Assembly: GCA_902556205.1 (NCBI GenBank)
Contig: CACDVH010000013.1
Coordinates: 1-38,698 of the forward strand
Direction of reading: 5' to 3'
DNA length: 38,698 nt
Source of the DNA: an uncultured Gammaproteobacteria bacterium
GTDB taxonomy: Bacteria; Pseudomonadota; Gammaproteobacteria; PS1; Pseudothioglobaceae
The first letter of the stretch is position 1. Each line of letters starts with the position of its first letter. This document shows positions 19,340 through 23,806 of the stretch, one piece after another. A model generated the notes under the pieces. That model worked only from the letters and a program-made list of their open reading frames with translations. It did no database searches and was not told where the DNA came from. Both the position numbers and the translations under genes were made by a program.

Positions 19340-21238
19340 ATGCTTACAGAAAAACAAATTCAAGACATATCTAATGACGTTACCTTGGTCAATGATTTAT
19401 CAGATGATGATTTAGTTGAATTTTGTAATATAGCAAACCAAAGATATAGGGCTGGTTCTCCCATCATCACTGATGAAAATTATGACTTTATTTTCATTTC
19501 TGAACTAGTTAAAAGATTACCTAATCATCCTTTTTTAAAACAAGTTGAGACTGAGATTGAAGGCTTTTCAGAAGAGAAAATTAGACTTCCTGAGAAAATG
19601 CTTTCAACTGATAAAGCCTATACATGGTTCGAAGTCGAGAAATGGTTAGAGAGAATTTCTAAGTTTTCTGATGAAATTACATTTTCATTAGATGATATTG
19701 TAATTAAAGGAACTGCCAAGCTTGATGGTTTTGCGGGTTATGATGATGGAGTGAAACTCTACACTCGTGGGGATGGAAACAAGGGAAGTGATATTTCAAG
19801 AGTCTTTGAAAGGGGCCTTGGAATTTTAAATGACAGTGAGAGAGGTCAAGGCCCTGGTGAGATAGTCGTTAAGAGAAGTTATTTTGAAAGTCATTTAAGT
19901 AGTCATTTTGAGTATCCAAGAAACTTTCAAGCAAGTTTGATCAAGGAAAAAGAGTTAGATCACTTTGCAAATGATGCAATAAACGCCAAGGCTGCTTTAT
20001 TTGTTCCCTTTAAACAGCTTCCATTTTGGCAGGGCTCTATAAAGGAGTTTAGTAATCAGTTTGCTGAAATAGTCGTTGAATTAGAACATGGCGTAGATTT
20101 TGATATTGATGGAGTGGTTTTTGAAGTAGTCAATCCAGATTTAAAAATTCATATGGGGTCAAATCGAAAATTCCATCGCTGGCAAATTGCTTACAAAGAA
20201 AATAAAGAAAAAGCTCAGGTGAGGGTTATTTCAATCACATCACAAGTTGGAAGAACTGGAAAAATTACTCCCGTTGCGGAGTTAGAGCCAACCCAATTGA
20301 GCGGCGCAACTATTTATAGAGCTACTGGCCATCATTATGGATTGGTTAAAGAGCAAGGCCTTGGCGCTGGAAGCATAGTAGAGTTAACGCGAAGTGGTAT
20401 GGTCATACCGAAAATCAATAAAGTCTTAAAAAAGGCAAAAGTTGAGATTCCTTCTAATTGCCCTAGTTGTGATTCTGATTTAGCTTGGGACTCAGACTTC
20501 CTTATGTGTCCTAACGTTAATTTTTGTCCAGATCAAGTTATTGGGAAAATGATATATTTTTTTAAAATTCTAGCTAATAACGATGGCTTTGGACAGGCAA
20601 CTATCAAAAAGCTATATGAAAATGGTATTCGTCAAGTTAGTGATATTTATCTTCTAGAGATAGATCATATAATGGAAATGGGATTTGGGGAGAAAACCTC
20701 AAAAAATCTCATTGAACAACTCAATAGGTCGCGCCAAGAGAGTATCGAAGATTGGCGTTTTTTGGCTGCTTTTGGTGTACAGAGGCTTGGAATGGGTAAC
20801 TGTGAAAATTTATTAAAAAATTATTCTATTGGAGAAATTTTTGAATTAACAGCAGAAGATATCTCAAGTATTGATGGTTTCGCAGAGCTTACTGCTGATC
20901 AAATTTTTGAAGGCTTAGCCTCTATTAAAGAACAGTATCAAGCGTTGATAAAAGACGGCTTTGAATTAGAAAAAACTCCATTGAAGAATGATAAAAATTT
21001 TAGTGATAACCCATTTCAAAATAAAAAAATTGTTTTTACAGGTGCCATGAGTCATTCACGTTCTGATCTTGAAAAGCAAGCTAAAATGCTTGGTATTTCT
21101 GTTGCTAAGAGCGTTAGCTCAAAAACTGATTTTCTAATTATTGGTGAAAATGTTGGTCAATCCAAAATGAATGATGCAAAAAAGCACAGCATTGAAATCA
21201 TGACTGAGTCTGAATATTTAAAAAAACTGAATACATAG
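19340..21238 (+). CDS. Divergent NAD-dependent DNA ligase (LigA-like)
   Basis: This 632-residue protein has the full domain order of a bacterial NAD-dependent ligase. An Ia-like domain comes first (YRAGSPIITDENYDF, about 36-50). The adenylation domain has the nucleotidyl-lysine motif KLDG (Lys127), TRGDGNKG and DIDGVVFEV. An OB-fold carries QVGRTGKITPVAELEP, and a zinc knuckle carries Cys374, 377, 390 and 396. Helix-hairpin-helix repeats (about 400-545) and a C-terminal BRCT domain (about 550-630) complete it. It departs from housekeeping LigA: the Glu two residues before the catalytic Lys (ExKxDG) is Thr, and many core segments are altered. It could be an accessory paralogue or the only ligase of this genome. 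No gene symbol is assigned for that reason. Confidence 0.85.
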   Translation: MLTEKQIQDISNDVTLVNDLSDDDLVEFCNIANQRYRAGSPIITDENYDFIFISELVKRLPNHPFLKQVETEIEGFSEEKIRLPEKMLSTDKAYTWFEVEKWLERISKFSDEITFSLDDIVIKGTAKLDGFAGYDDGVKLYTRGDGNKGSDISRVFERGLGILNDSERGQGPGEIVVKRSYFESHLSSHFEYPRNFQASLIKEKELDHFANDAINAKAALFVPFKQLPFWQGSIKEFSNQFAEIVVELEHGVDFDIDGVVFEVVNPDLKIHMGSNRKFHRWQIAYKENKEKAQVRVISITSQVGRTGKITPVAELEPTQLSGATIYRATGHHYGLVKEQGLGAGSIVELTRSGMVIPKINKVLKKAKVEIPSNCPSCDSDLAWDSDFLMCPNVNFCPDQVIGKMIYFFKILANNDGFGQATIKKLYENGIRQVSDIYLLEIDHIMEMGFGEKTSKNLIEQLNRSRQESIEDWRFLAAFGVQRLGMGNCENLLKNYSIGEIFELTAEDISSIDGFAELTADQIFEGLASIKEQYQALIKDGFELEKTPLKNDKNFSDNPFQNKKIVFTGAMSHSRSDLEKQAKMLGISVAKSVSSKTDFLIIGENVGQSKMNDAKKHSIEIMTESEYLKKLNT

Positions 21239-21250
21239 AATTTTTTTATA

Positions 21251-21256
21251 TATAAT
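21251..21256 (+). promoter_or_regulatory. Candidate -10 element for the glnK-amtB leader
   Basis: TATAAT lies just after the ligase gene and upstream of all the leader hairpins. The best -35 candidate overlaps the ligase stop region and is poor (CTGAAT at 21227-21232). Transcription starting near 21263 would place every hairpin in the glnK 5' untranslated region. No sigma-54 motif (GG-N10-GC with flanking consensus) was found. Confidence 0.45.
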
Positions 21257-21263
21257 TACTTCA

Positions 21264-21307
21264 ACTTAAATCCGAAGTTGGTTTTAAGTAAAGACATTGA
21301 CGTTTAT
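21264..21307 (+). ncRNA. Candidate upstream ANTAR-target hairpin pair in the glnK leader (module 1)
   Basis: Hairpin A pairs ACTTAAA (21264-21270) with TTTAAGT (21283-21289), then a T-T mismatch and CC/GG around the six-base loop GAAGTT (21274-21279). Two bases later AGAC (21292-21295, pairing AGAC/GTTT with one G-T) closes on the six-base loop ATTGAC (21296-21301), with GTTT at 21302-21305. The second loop has A at position 1 and G at 4, as in ANTAR RNA targets. The first has G at both 1 and 4, an imperfect match. The second hairpin shares bases with the 5' arm of the terminator at 21300-21338, so both cannot form at once. Confidence 0.5.
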
Positions 21308-21338
21308 TTGGGAATTTCCCCAGGTAAGCGTTTTTTTT
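21300..21338 (+). terminator. Rho-independent terminator-like hairpin 1 in the glnK leader
   Basis: A 13-pair stem (5' arm 21300-21312, 3' arm 21319-21331, three G-T pairs) around the loop AATTTC is followed by eight T (21331-21338). It could end ligase transcription. Because the only visible promoter is upstream, it could also be the first of two attenuators in the glnK leader. Confidence 0.75.
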
Positions 21339-21340
21339 CG

Positions 21341-21377
21341 TCAGTTTAAAGATGAGCTGAACTGGTATAGAAGCCCG
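21341..21377 (+). ncRNA. Candidate ANTAR-target hairpin pair overlapping the glnK attenuator (module 2)
   Basis: P1: TCAGTTT (21341-21347) pairs with GAGCTGA (21354-21360), seven pairs including two G-T, around the hexaloop AAAGAT. P2: GGT (21364-21366) pairs with GCC (21373-21375), with one further C-G pair after a mismatch, around the hexaloop ATAGAA (21367-21372). Both loops are AxxGxx. One to three bases separate the hairpins. P2 uses bases of the 5' arm of the terminator at 21369-21411, the arrangement by which ANTAR proteins block termination. A candidate ANTAR protein is encoded at 23204-23806. The P2 stem is short, so the call rests on layout and loop match. Confidence 0.65.
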
Positions 21378-21411
21378 CTACTTTCTTGAAGGTAGCGGGC
21401 TTCTTTGTTTA
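21369..21411 (+). terminator. Strong terminator-like hairpin 2 directly before glnK (candidate attenuator)
   Basis: Sixteen pairs (5' arm 21369-21384, 3' arm 21389-21404, one G-T) enclose the loop CTTG and are followed by TTTGTTT. The hairpin ends 25 bases before the glnK start codon, leaving room for the ribosome site GGAG (21419-21422) but not for a promoter. Its position inside the leader therefore argues for regulated read-through. Confidence 0.85.
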
Positions 21412-21429
21412 TAACATTGGAGTAATAAT

Positions 21430-21774
21430 ATGAAAATGATAACAGCTTACATTCAGCCAAAAAGACTGGATAGCGTGAGACAAGTTCTTTCAGAAATTGA
21501 TATTAATGGTGTTTCTGTTACAGAAGTAAAGGGGTTTGGAAGACAAAAAGGTCACACTGAGCTCTACAGAGGTGCAGAGTATGTGGTTGAGTTCCTACCT
21601 AAAGTTAAATTAGAAATTGCGATTACCGATGAGCAAGTTGATGAAGTCATTGAAACCATCAGTTCTGCTTGCAAAATTAATGGTGGAAAGATCGGCGATG
21701 GCAAAATTTTTGTTACAAGTCTAGAACAGGTTGTTCGTATTCGTACGGGCGAGTCTGGTCCAGAGGCACTATAG
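21430..21774 (+). CDS. glnK: Nitrogen regulatory protein P-II (GlnK/GlnB)
   Basis: PII proteins are trimeric sensors of ATP/ADP, 2-oxoglutarate and, through uridylylation, glutamine. GlnK binds and closes the AmtB ammonium channel. The 114-residue protein has the T-loop with the modifiable Tyr51 (RGAEYVVEF), the GFGRQKGHTELYRG signature (35-48) and the B-loop GGKIGDGKIFV. A C-terminal RIRTGE segment follows. It precedes amtB by nine bases with GGAG ahead of each start, the conserved glnK-amtB operon. Its leader carries two terminator-like hairpins and ANTAR-type stem loops instead of a recognisable NtrC/sigma-54 promoter. GlnK rather than GlnB is inferred from the amtB linkage. Confidence 0.96.
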   Translation: MKMITAYIQPKRLDSVRQVLSEIDINGVSVTEVKGFGRQKGHTELYRGAEYVVEFLPKVKLEIAITDEQVDEVIETISSACKINGGKIGDGKIFVTSLEQVVRIRTGESGPEAL

Positions 21775-21783
21775 GAGTAGGAA

Positions 21784-22998
21784 ATGGAAAATCAAATATT
21801 AGAATTACAGTATGCAATTGATACTTTTTACTTTTTAGTAATGGGCGCACTTGTGATGTGGATGGCAGCTGGCTTTTCAATGCTAGAAGCTGGATTGGTA
21901 AGGAGCAAAAATACCGCTGAAATACTCACTAAAAATATTGGTCTTTTTGCTATTGCTTGCACTATGTACATGGTCTATGGTTATGACTTGATGTATGGCG
22001 GCGGAGCATTCCTTTCGGGGATTAGTGGACAAGGTGAGACCTATTCAAATGCTTCTGACTTCTACTTTCAGGTGGTCTTTGTTGCAACAGCAATGTCAAT
22101 TGTTTCTGGTGCGGTAGCTGAGAGAATGAAATTATTTACTTTTTTTGCTTTCGCAGTAATCTTTACCACCATTATTTATCCTCTTGAGGGCTCTTGGACT
22201 TGGGGCGGTAATGATGTTTTTGGTCTTTACAACCTAGGAGACTTTGGTTTTTATGACTTTGCAGGATCTGGAATTGTTCATATGGCTGGAGCTGCAGCGG
22301 CAATTGCTGGCGTAATGATCCTTGGCCCTAGAAAAGGAAAATATGACAAGGATGGCAACTCAAAACCAATCTTGGGTGCAAATCTCCCATTAGCTACATT
22401 AGGAACGTTTATCCTATGGTTGGGTTGGTTTGGATTTAATGGTGGATCAGTTCTAGCAATGGCAAGTAAAGAGAGTGCTGATGCAGTAGCTATGGTTTTT
22501 GTTAATACAAATGCTGCGGCTGCTGGAGGCGTAATTGCCGCACTAGTTTTTGCTAAACTGTGGTTTGGTAAGGCAGACTTAACTATGACATTAAATGGTG
22601 CATTAGCAGGCCTGGTTGCTATTACTGCAGGACCTGATACGCCGAGTACTTTGGCTGCTGCTTTGATTGGAGCAGTTGGTGGTGTAATCGTTGTTCTATC
22701 TATTGTTTGGCTGGATCGTAAACTTAAGATAGATGATCCTGTTGGTGCTATTTCAGTGCATGGTGTTGTCGGTTTATGGGGTCTCTTAGCAGTGCCATTG
22801 ACTAATGCCGATGTCTCATTTTCTGGACAAATAGTTGGAGCCTTAACAATCTTTGTGTGGGTATTTGTTGCTTCAATGTTAGTTTGGCTTGCACTAAAAT
22901 CTCTAATTGGGATTCGCGTATCGGATGACGAAGAAGAGTCTGGAGTTGACATTTCTGAATGTGGAATGGAGGCTTACCCAGAGTTTGTAACGAAATAA
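21784..22998 (+). CDS. amtB: Ammonium transporter
   Basis: AmtB forms trimeric inner-membrane channels for ammonium/ammonia uptake and is gated by GlnK. The 404-residue protein has about eleven membrane helices. Signatures include MLEAGLVRSKN near the N-terminus, DFAGSGIVHMAGA with the first pore His, and GWFGFNGGSVLA. SVHGVVGLWG carries the second pore His. No long cleavable signal is obvious. Its neighbours are glnK upstream, a terminator directly after the stop, and an ANTAR regulator gene 205 bases downstream. A 224-codon open frame on the opposite strand inside this gene is a shadow. Identification is secure. Confidence 0.98.
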   Translation: MENQILELQYAIDTFYFLVMGALVMWMAAGFSMLEAGLVRSKNTAEILTKNIGLFAIACTMYMVYGYDLMYGGGAFLSGISGQGETYSNASDFYFQVVFVATAMSIVSGAVAERMKLFTFFAFAVIFTTIIYPLEGSWTWGGNDVFGLYNLGDFGFYDFAGSGIVHMAGAAAAIAGVMILGPRKGKYDKDGNSKPILGANLPLATLGTFILWLGWFGFNGGSVLAMASKESADAVAMVFVNTNAAAAGGVIAALVFAKLWFGKADLTMTLNGALAGLVAITAGPDTPSTLAAALIGAVGGVIVVLSIVWLDRKLKIDDPVGAISVHGVVGLWGLLAVPLTNADVSFSGQIVGALTIFVWVFVASMLVWLALKSLIGIRVSDDEEESGVDISECGMEAYPEFVTK

Positions 22999-23002
22999 AT
23001 AA

Positions 23003-23038
23003 ATGGCATCAATTTTCAAGTTGATGCCATCCATTTTT
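23003..23038 (+). terminator. Rho-independent terminator after amtB
   Basis: ATGGCATCAA (23003-23012) pairs perfectly with TTGATGCCAT (23021-23030) around an eight-base loop and is followed shortly by five T (23034-23038). It begins four bases after the amtB stop codon. Confidence 0.8.
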
Positions 23039-23203: not shown

Positions 23204-23806
23204 ATGAAAAAAAATTCAATGAATCAGTCAGCTCTCAAAATTATACTTGTTGACGAAAATATGGGCCGTTCTGCTATTTTAAGACGCGCTCTTCAAGACA
23301 AGGGTCATGAGGTAATAAGCCGTTTAGAAGAGAGCGAAAATCTTGCAAACAGTAATGAAATTACCCATGCAGATGTGGTGATTGTCAATGCAGATATTCC
23401 TGATGAAGCTGTTTTTGCGAATTTAAGGGATGTCAATAAAACAAAACCTAAGCCAATTGTTATGTTTACGGAGTCATCAGAAGAGGATATGGCTGGAACG
23501 GCAATCAAGTCAGGAGTCAATGCTTACATTGTTGATGGACTAGAAGAAAAAAGAGTTCAGCCAATTATTGACGTTGCTATTGCTCGTTTCAGAGAGTTTC
23601 AGGCTTTAAAAGATGAGCTAGACGCTACAAGAAGTCAGCTGGCTGAGCGTAAATCAATTGAAAAAGCTAAAGGCCTTCTGATGAAACATAAAAAAATTAC
23701 TGAGGATGAGGCTTATCAGTCTCTTAGAAAAATGGCAATGGACAAAAATAAGCGAATTTCAGAAGTTGCTGATGGCATTATTAGTGCTTTTGAACTCTTA
23801 GGATAA
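23204..23806 (+). CDS. ANTAR-domain antiterminator response regulator (NasT-like)
   Basis: This 200-residue protein has an N-terminal receiver-like domain (about 11-125), a short coiled-coil linker (about 130-150) and a C-terminal ANTAR RNA-binding domain (about 147-200; ERKSIEKAKGLLMKH, then DEAYQSLRKMAM). ANTAR proteins bind paired hexaloop hairpins and prevent transcription termination, commonly in nitrogen metabolism. AIKSGVNAYIVDG resembles NasT proteins. The position of the phosphoacceptor Asp, four residues before the Pro of NADIP, is Asn62; Asp64 is close by. No cognate kinase or NasS gene is adjacent. The obvious target is the glnK leader 1.8 kb upstream. A start at the sixth codon (23219) is possible. 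Confidence 0.92.
   Translation: MKKNSMNQSALKIILVDENMGRSAILRRALQDKGHEVISRLEESENLANSNEITHADVVIVNADIPDEAVFANLRDVNKTKPKPIVMFTESSEEDMAGTAIKSGVNAYIVDGLEEKRVQPIIDVAIARFREFQALKDELDATRSQLAERKSIEKAKGLLMKHKKITEDEAYQSLRKMAMDKNKRISEVADGIISAFELLG

Follow-up and report, generated by a model that had tools for sequence, protein, structure and literature searches.

The locus described here raises the question of how a bacterium of the Thioglobus/SUP05 lineage, which is widespread in the sea and whose record titles name Thioglobus, Pseudothioglobus, SUP05 and mussel and clam symbionts, sets the synthesis of its P-II protein and ammonium transporter, products of an operon that in enteric bacteria is governed by NtrBC/sigma-54. 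In the window, by which we mean the whole 38,698-base stretch of DNA that was analysed, the gene order is ligA (stop at 21238), glnK, amtB and an ANTAR gene; the leader elements and genes given spans below all lie on the forward (+) strand. The genes presumed to be controlled are glnK (21430..21774; Pfam P-II, E 3.2e-28) and amtB (21784..22998; 'marine subtype' TIGR03644, 621 bits). The ANTAR protein that the sequence-only reading had placed directly behind amtB is encoded there, at 23204..23806, as a product of 200 residues with receiver-like and ANTAR domains (Pfam Response_reg and ANTAR), and it is the presumed antiterminator, referred to below as NasT-like. Direct reading of the gap between amtB and this gene shows, at 23003..23035, a candidate hairpin (ATGGCATCAA/TTGATGCCAT) whose tail is short and rich in T; it may separate the transcripts of the two genes. 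Between ligA and glnK the leader contains, in order, a TATAAT box and the elements P1', P2', T1, P1, P2 and T2, and from their arrangement and conservation we consider it very probable that the leader works as two ANTAR attenuators in series, opened by the NasT-like protein.

The module nearer to glnK is the one already proposed from the letters alone, as two hexaloop hairpins, AAAGAT and ATAGAA, each with A at position 1 and G at position 4 (A1/G4), and a 16-pair terminator-like hairpin sharing an arm with the second; all of these are present. P1 (UCAGUUU[AAAGAU]GAGCUGA, 7 pairs; 21341..21360) is supported by sequence, fold and covariance model. P2 (GGU[AUAGAA]GCC; 21364..21375), the antiterminator hairpin, begins three bases past P1 and has 3 pairs, the fourth position being U.C. 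The intrinsic terminator T2 (16 pairs; 21369..21404), found both by folding and by a terminator scan, contains the 3' arm of P2 in its own 5' arm and ends 25 bases short of the glnK start codon (ATG at 21430), with a weak U-run, TTGTTTATAA, 3' of the 16-bp stem. In the window, therefore, both loops and both stems (7 and 3 pairs) of this module follow the ANTAR substrate rule. Fold z-scores were -7.15 for the leader at 21300-21440 and -6.1 for 21339-21412; folded alone, P1 takes a minimum-energy form with one extra A-U pair and the tetraloop AAGA. A strict scan by criteria of our own (a pair of A1/G4 hexaloop hairpins, each with 3 pairs or more, the second overlapping a U-tailed stem), run over both strands of the 38,698 bases, returned a single place, with loops at 21348 and 21367, which is this module. 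With a covariance model whose seeds were the relatives together with the window site, it scored 26.6 bits (E 2.6e-5 in the window), a value that is not independent as the site is among the seeds. The Rfam families that matched the window at E up to 5 did not include an ANTAR family, and tRNAs alone reached their gathering score.

A second module, overlooked in the earlier reading and identified by us via relatives, lies directly upstream (21265-21338) and has a terminator of its own. Its first hairpin, P1' (CUUAAAUCC[GAAGUU]GGUUUUAAG; 21265..21288), rests on covariation in relatives and on the covariance model, and in the window its stem consists of 2 pairs, a U.U mismatch and then 6 pairs. 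The antiterminator hairpin P2' (AGAC[AUUGAC]GUUU; 21292..21305) has 4 pairs. The hexaloop rule is followed here in part, the P2' loop being A1/G4 and that of P1' G1/G4, and it is because the P1' loop starts with G, and because its stem is mismatched after two pairs, that the module escapes the strict scan. The covariance model gave it 31.4 bits in the window, where again the module is among the seeds and the score is not independent. The terminator T1 (13-14 pairs, 8 U; 21299..21338), supported by fold and terminator scan, includes the 3' arm of P2' in its 5' arm, the same arrangement as that of P2 with T2, so that through shared arms both P2'/T1 and P2/T2 are mutually exclusive pairs of antiterminator hairpin and intrinsic terminator. 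The terminator scan of 21150-21440 found T1 and T2 only, against 0.2 expected, and the T1 pattern occurs once in the genome assembly.

The presumed glnK promoter lies upstream of both modules, as a -10-like TATAAT element at 21251..21256. The exact hexamer is found in 40/45 leaders, and in 43 aligned leaders a TATAAT-like box stands 43-54 bases 5' of the P2' loop; since the leaders were anchored on a TATAAT-like match, the letters are partly there by construction, which is not true of the near-fixed distance. A -35 consensus is not evident (the best match was 3 of 6, in 29/45 leaders), and a promoter scan of 21150-21440 called none anywhere, the interval between T2 and glnK included, so that this result carries no weight either way for the earlier remark that no promoter fits between terminator and gene. 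The earlier proposal of control by antitermination is upheld, on computational grounds, and proves incomplete: it covered one of two serial attenuators, in a leader that starts about 80 bases upstream of the stretch it described.

The sequence-only reading had suggested aligning the glnK leaders of related genomes, and such an alignment preserves the layout, most loop letters and the covarying stems. The P-II protein was found in 56/60 genomes of the family, and 48 glnK leaders were collected, one per genome and Thioglobus/SUP05-like, of which 43, the window's among them, were aligned. The five excluded leaders differ in kind. One (G077) has no module, and another (G060) precedes a second-type glnK and likewise has none; G094 (L064) is a natural single-module variant, in which module 1 is absent, module 2 is present and a ligA-like stop abuts P1; and in two genomes of 1.0 Mb (G071 and G075; L053 and L052) the loops and stems before glnK have decayed and the ANTAR frame is open. 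No module precedes the second-type glnK of two further genomes either (G000 and G031, by eye), and therefore not every P-II gene is covered.

Counted by a script that allowed each loop a shift of up to 3 bases in favour of A1/G4, G4 is found in P1', P2', P1 and P2 of 43, 43, 42 and 42 of the 43 leaders, and A1 in 38, 40, 26 and 43, respectively; position 1 of the P1' loop is G in the window and in 4 other leaders. The P1 of module 2 is a hexaloop in 20 leaders, a pentaloop in 20 and unscored in 3. The pentaloop forms (e.g. L032-L039, L047 and L054-L056) have A as their first loop base and stems of 5-11 pairs, and lie outside the published A1/G4 hexaloop rule. Pairs 3-6 of P1' are paired in 35-38 of the 43 leaders, above all 500 shuffles (maxima 28-32); in P2' and P2 variation among these leaders is too low for a covariation signal. 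When P1-P2 rows of both modules were pooled (56 distinct sequences, module 2 entering only with canonical loops), 94.4% of cells were paired vs 79.8% after shuffling, and the covariation score, which partly reflects differences between the modules, was 0.617 vs 0.354 shuffled and at most 0.358 slid, with 0/500 shuffles as high. The test on P1', P2' and P2 is passed by 40/43 aligned leaders. Across the 43 leaders, T1 has a median of -16.2 kcal/mol and 7-9 U in 41/43, and T2 a median of -24.1 kcal/mol.

These data bear on the notion that T1 is simply the terminator of ligA, the glnK attenuator then consisting of module 2, driven by a promoter that has escaped notice within or behind T1. T1 does stand close behind ligA, U-tailed hairpins commonly follow genes, the promoter proposed 5' of P1' is without a -35 box, and in G094 the ligA-like stop adjoins P1 with module 1 missing. 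Set against this are the invariant G4 of P1' and P2' and the covariation of P1', the mirroring of P2/T2 by P2'/T1, the position of the TATAAT-like box before the P2' loop, and the recurrence of the double layout before nirB-like genes elsewhere. In one single-contig genome (G028), moreover, the ANTAR gene lies about 504 kb from glnK and adjoins ligA, and the leader has remained with glnK. We have rejected a mere ligA terminator on these grounds, and regard it as very improbable.

If the leader is a double ANTAR attenuator, its protein should be at hand. The NasT-like protein is the sole ANTAR match in the genome assembly (92% complete), at E 4.9e-20; a second candidate proved to be a 23%-identity receiver match with an internal stop and was discarded. 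NCBIfam has no model that names the protein NasT, and the label 'NasT-like' rests on its receiver-like plus ANTAR architecture. Among solved chains the nearest is 6wsh (EutV; E 2.9e-21), followed by 1s8n (E 2.3e-20), presumably Rv1626. By alignment, with chain numbering offset by 2 from that of the publication, all seven EutV RNA contacts given in the available part of PMC8934654 (R142, K143, K147, K149, E160, Y164 and M172) are kept, as R149, K150, K154, K156, E167, Y171 and M179; across an alignment of 15 proteins, one of them the window's, six of these residues do not vary and K154 hardly does. The same 15/15 have Asn (Asn62) at the phospho-acceptor position (D54 of EutV) and Asp (Asp111) at that of the conserved Lys, which makes ordinary phosphorylation unlikely. 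Given a receiver-like domain with Asn62 in place of a phospho-acceptor, the activity of the antiterminator is probably set by a partner protein, a ligand or its own level.

Gene and motif also travel together. In 39/46 genomes with both, the ANTAR gene begins 1.6-3.0 kb downstream of where glnK starts, and in six of the 46 the two are on different contigs. A model built from both modules (R1) has matches in 56/60 genomes of the family at E<=0.5; tightening the threshold to E<=0.01 leaves 51, made up of 47/51 genomes with an ANTAR gene vs 4/9 without (Fisher p 0.002, a value that ignores kinship and genome incompleteness). Among the four with motif and no ANTAR gene, two contigs end just past amtB by their coordinates (G035, G085), one enters a transposase-like stretch by eye (G062), and one genome is 77% complete (G077). 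A further model (R2) matches 23/29 genomes of the genus at E<=0.1, 11/11 of the best, and 1/35 other genomes of the class (E 0.056); two motif patterns gave 0 matches each in viral contigs. This co-occurrence, together with paired A1/G4 hexaloops overlapping a terminator, which constitute the published ANTAR substrate, speaks against control of the leader by some factor other than an ANTAR protein, be it a leader peptide, Rho or a small RNA. Such a factor would accommodate the two 1.0-Mb genomes that retain the gene with decayed motifs, the tie between protein and RNA is computational, and an Rfam Trp_leader match spans 21292-21408, at a chance-level 22.3 bits vs a gathering score of 41; even so, we rate it the least probable of the readings considered.

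On our preferred reading, that of an ANTAR-controlled double attenuator, RNA polymerase would start near 21263 at a sigma-70 type promoter with its -10 at 21251, and would transcribe first P1'-P2'-T1 and afterwards P1-P2-T2. As long as no antiterminator is active, T1 would be expected to form, followed by T2, leaving glnK-amtB transcript scarce; since two terminators stand in series, leakage would equal the product of two read-through rates, and the doubled attenuator could make it very low. When active, the NasT-like protein would, by analogy with EutV, NasR and NasT, bind the hexaloops and keep P2' and P2 as hairpins, so that T1 and T2 are blocked. In Paracoccus, transcripts of glnA and glnB (P-II) are lower in a nasT mutant, according to the available text of PMC5424462, which provides a precedent for a link between NasT and P-II. 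The same protein may drive a nitrogen regulon (nirB-nasA, serC, serB and torF in relatives) and read nitrogen status, a step with less support than binding and antitermination.

The wider targets come from matches in relatives. Outside glnK, 20 were fetched: 10 nirB-like genes (L193 called by Pfam, the other nine by first residues), 3 nasA-like MFS genes, 2 serC, 1 gene that by eye is serB-like and in Pfam belongs to the HAD family, 1 Gcw_chp (TorF-type) gene, 1 porin-like gene (by eye), 1 frame of 94 aa, and one match (L202) falling within a coding frame, which we attribute to chance. The nirB-like leaders (L191-L195, L197, L198, L203, L207 and L208) belong to other genera, and 7/10 match both modules; the nirB-like frame of L192 (G068) is only 95 aa, and the gene therefore looks broken. 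Within the window's genus, serC(-serA) and the serB-like gene, with ANTAR modules (L190, L200, L201 and L213-L224), constitute an unexpected target. Among full-length serC matches of at least 78% identity, one module and a U-tailed stem precede the gene in 8/12 genomes of that genus; the leader of G016 is cut by the 150-base view, the U-run is only six in G002, and the module is missing in G015, G023 and G028, in the first two of which no ANTAR gene was detected (67% and 70% complete). In G076 (L205) an ANTAR module precedes a Gcw_chp gene, and in G062 (L236) a TorF-type gene lies 3' of amtB (by eye). As judged from these upstream sequences, modules before nirB-, nasA-, serC-, serB- and torF-like genes in relatives suggest a regulon. 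The window's own genome contains only the two glnK modules at E<=0.1, and no serC was found in it, so the regulon pertains to the relatives and not to that genome.

What the system senses is a separate matter. Sigma-54 (PF04552) matched in 0/12 genomes of the genus, two of them single-contig, and in 11/60 of the family. The earlier claim that antitermination acts in place of NtrC/sigma-54 is borne out as regards sigma-54 in all 12 genus genomes, the search having covered sigma-54 alone. A genus without detectable sigma-54 needs another control of ammonium uptake, for which the double attenuator is a concrete candidate. Classical NasT would suggest that the attenuators, ANTAR-controlled as proposed, respond to nitrate or nitrite rather than to general nitrogen status, and this has some appeal: the architecture of the protein resembles NasT, nirB- and nasA-like leaders in several genera contain the motif, and outside the family each of the four ANTAR genes inspected (of eight matches) adjoins an NMT1_2 (NrtA/NasS-type) gene. 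Less easily reconciled with it, glnK-amtB is the target in most genomes, and the NasS-type partner (NMT1_2, PF13379) gave 0 matches in the window's genome (92% complete) and is found in 5/60 family genomes at E<=0.001 and 1/60 over the cut-off, where control matches were obtained in 12/14. A nitrate or nitrite signal, which might act through another nitrate sensor, is in our judgement appreciably less likely than not.

If the NasT-like protein reads general nitrogen status, the suspect for its missing sensor is P-II, encoded beside it. One may speculate that nitrogen control in this lineage shifted from NtrBC/sigma-54 to antitermination, and that P-II (GlnK) replaces NasS in holding and releasing the NasT-like protein: falling glutamine would free the antiterminator, which would open the attenuators before glnK-amtB and, in relatives, those of nirB-nasA and the serine genes; GlnK would thereby complete a feedback loop. 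We put this forward as a doubtful proposal, less probable still than a nitrate or nitrite signal. A 311-aa protein was also considered as the missing sensor and rejected, for it has no match in 12 genus genomes, and is therefore not a general sensor, and no solved relative at E<=1. It is encoded just 5' of glnK in 14 genomes of other genera (L039:303-1238 and relatives), shows weak YkuI_C and PDC similarity, below cut-off, and its own leader matches the ANTAR model in L039, L044 and L050.

Neither the type of switch nor the pairing of genes is new. A 2012 survey, as far as its available text goes, places ANTAR RNA upstream of P-II, ammonium transporter, nitrate/nitrite transporter and nitrite reductase genes (PMC3369931). 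The sequence-only reading had left open whether this pairing had been described in the lineage; the survey describes it in general terms. No report of ANTAR control in SUP05/Thioglobus was found in the open-licence literature, and the supplementary tables of 2012 may list such sites. Within the literature searched, the apparently new elements are the serial double module, with the pattern in which family members keep it or have let it decay; the lineage itself; the wider targets including serine genes; and an orphan NasT-like regulator that has neither a NasS partner nor a phospho-acceptor, in a genus where sigma-54 gave no match. Natural variants in which module 1 is lost, loops have decayed, or gene and target have parted are available to probe the role of the second copy.

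Desulfotomaculum acetoxidans belongs to a distant lineage. Its regulon, with at least 13 ANTAR elements in six nitrogen operons, resembles the present one in having several elements per operon and nitrogen genes as targets, the two points compared, as described in the accessible text (PMC3369931). The likeness to EutV of Enterococcus faecalis, NasR of Klebsiella and AmiR of Pseudomonas, again as far as those sources were available (PMC3369931, PMC8934654, PMC7496416), lies in two A1/G4 hexaloops, the second overlapping a terminator, and in a protein with the same RNA-contact residues; unlike those systems, the leader described here has two modules in series before one operon, directed at P-II and ammonium transport, and its protein has neither a phospho-acceptor nor a fused sensor domain. 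NasS-NasT of Paracoccus and others shares receiver-like and ANTAR domains and nitrogen targets (PMC3795266, PMC5424462, in their available parts), but here no NasS-type gene was found in the window's genome, the regulator gene lies by glnK-amtB, and Asn occupies the phospho-acceptor position in all of the aligned proteins. Enteric NtrBC/sigma-54 control concerns the same operon; here, where none of the 12 genomes searched in the genus matches sigma-54, control would instead follow the start of transcription.
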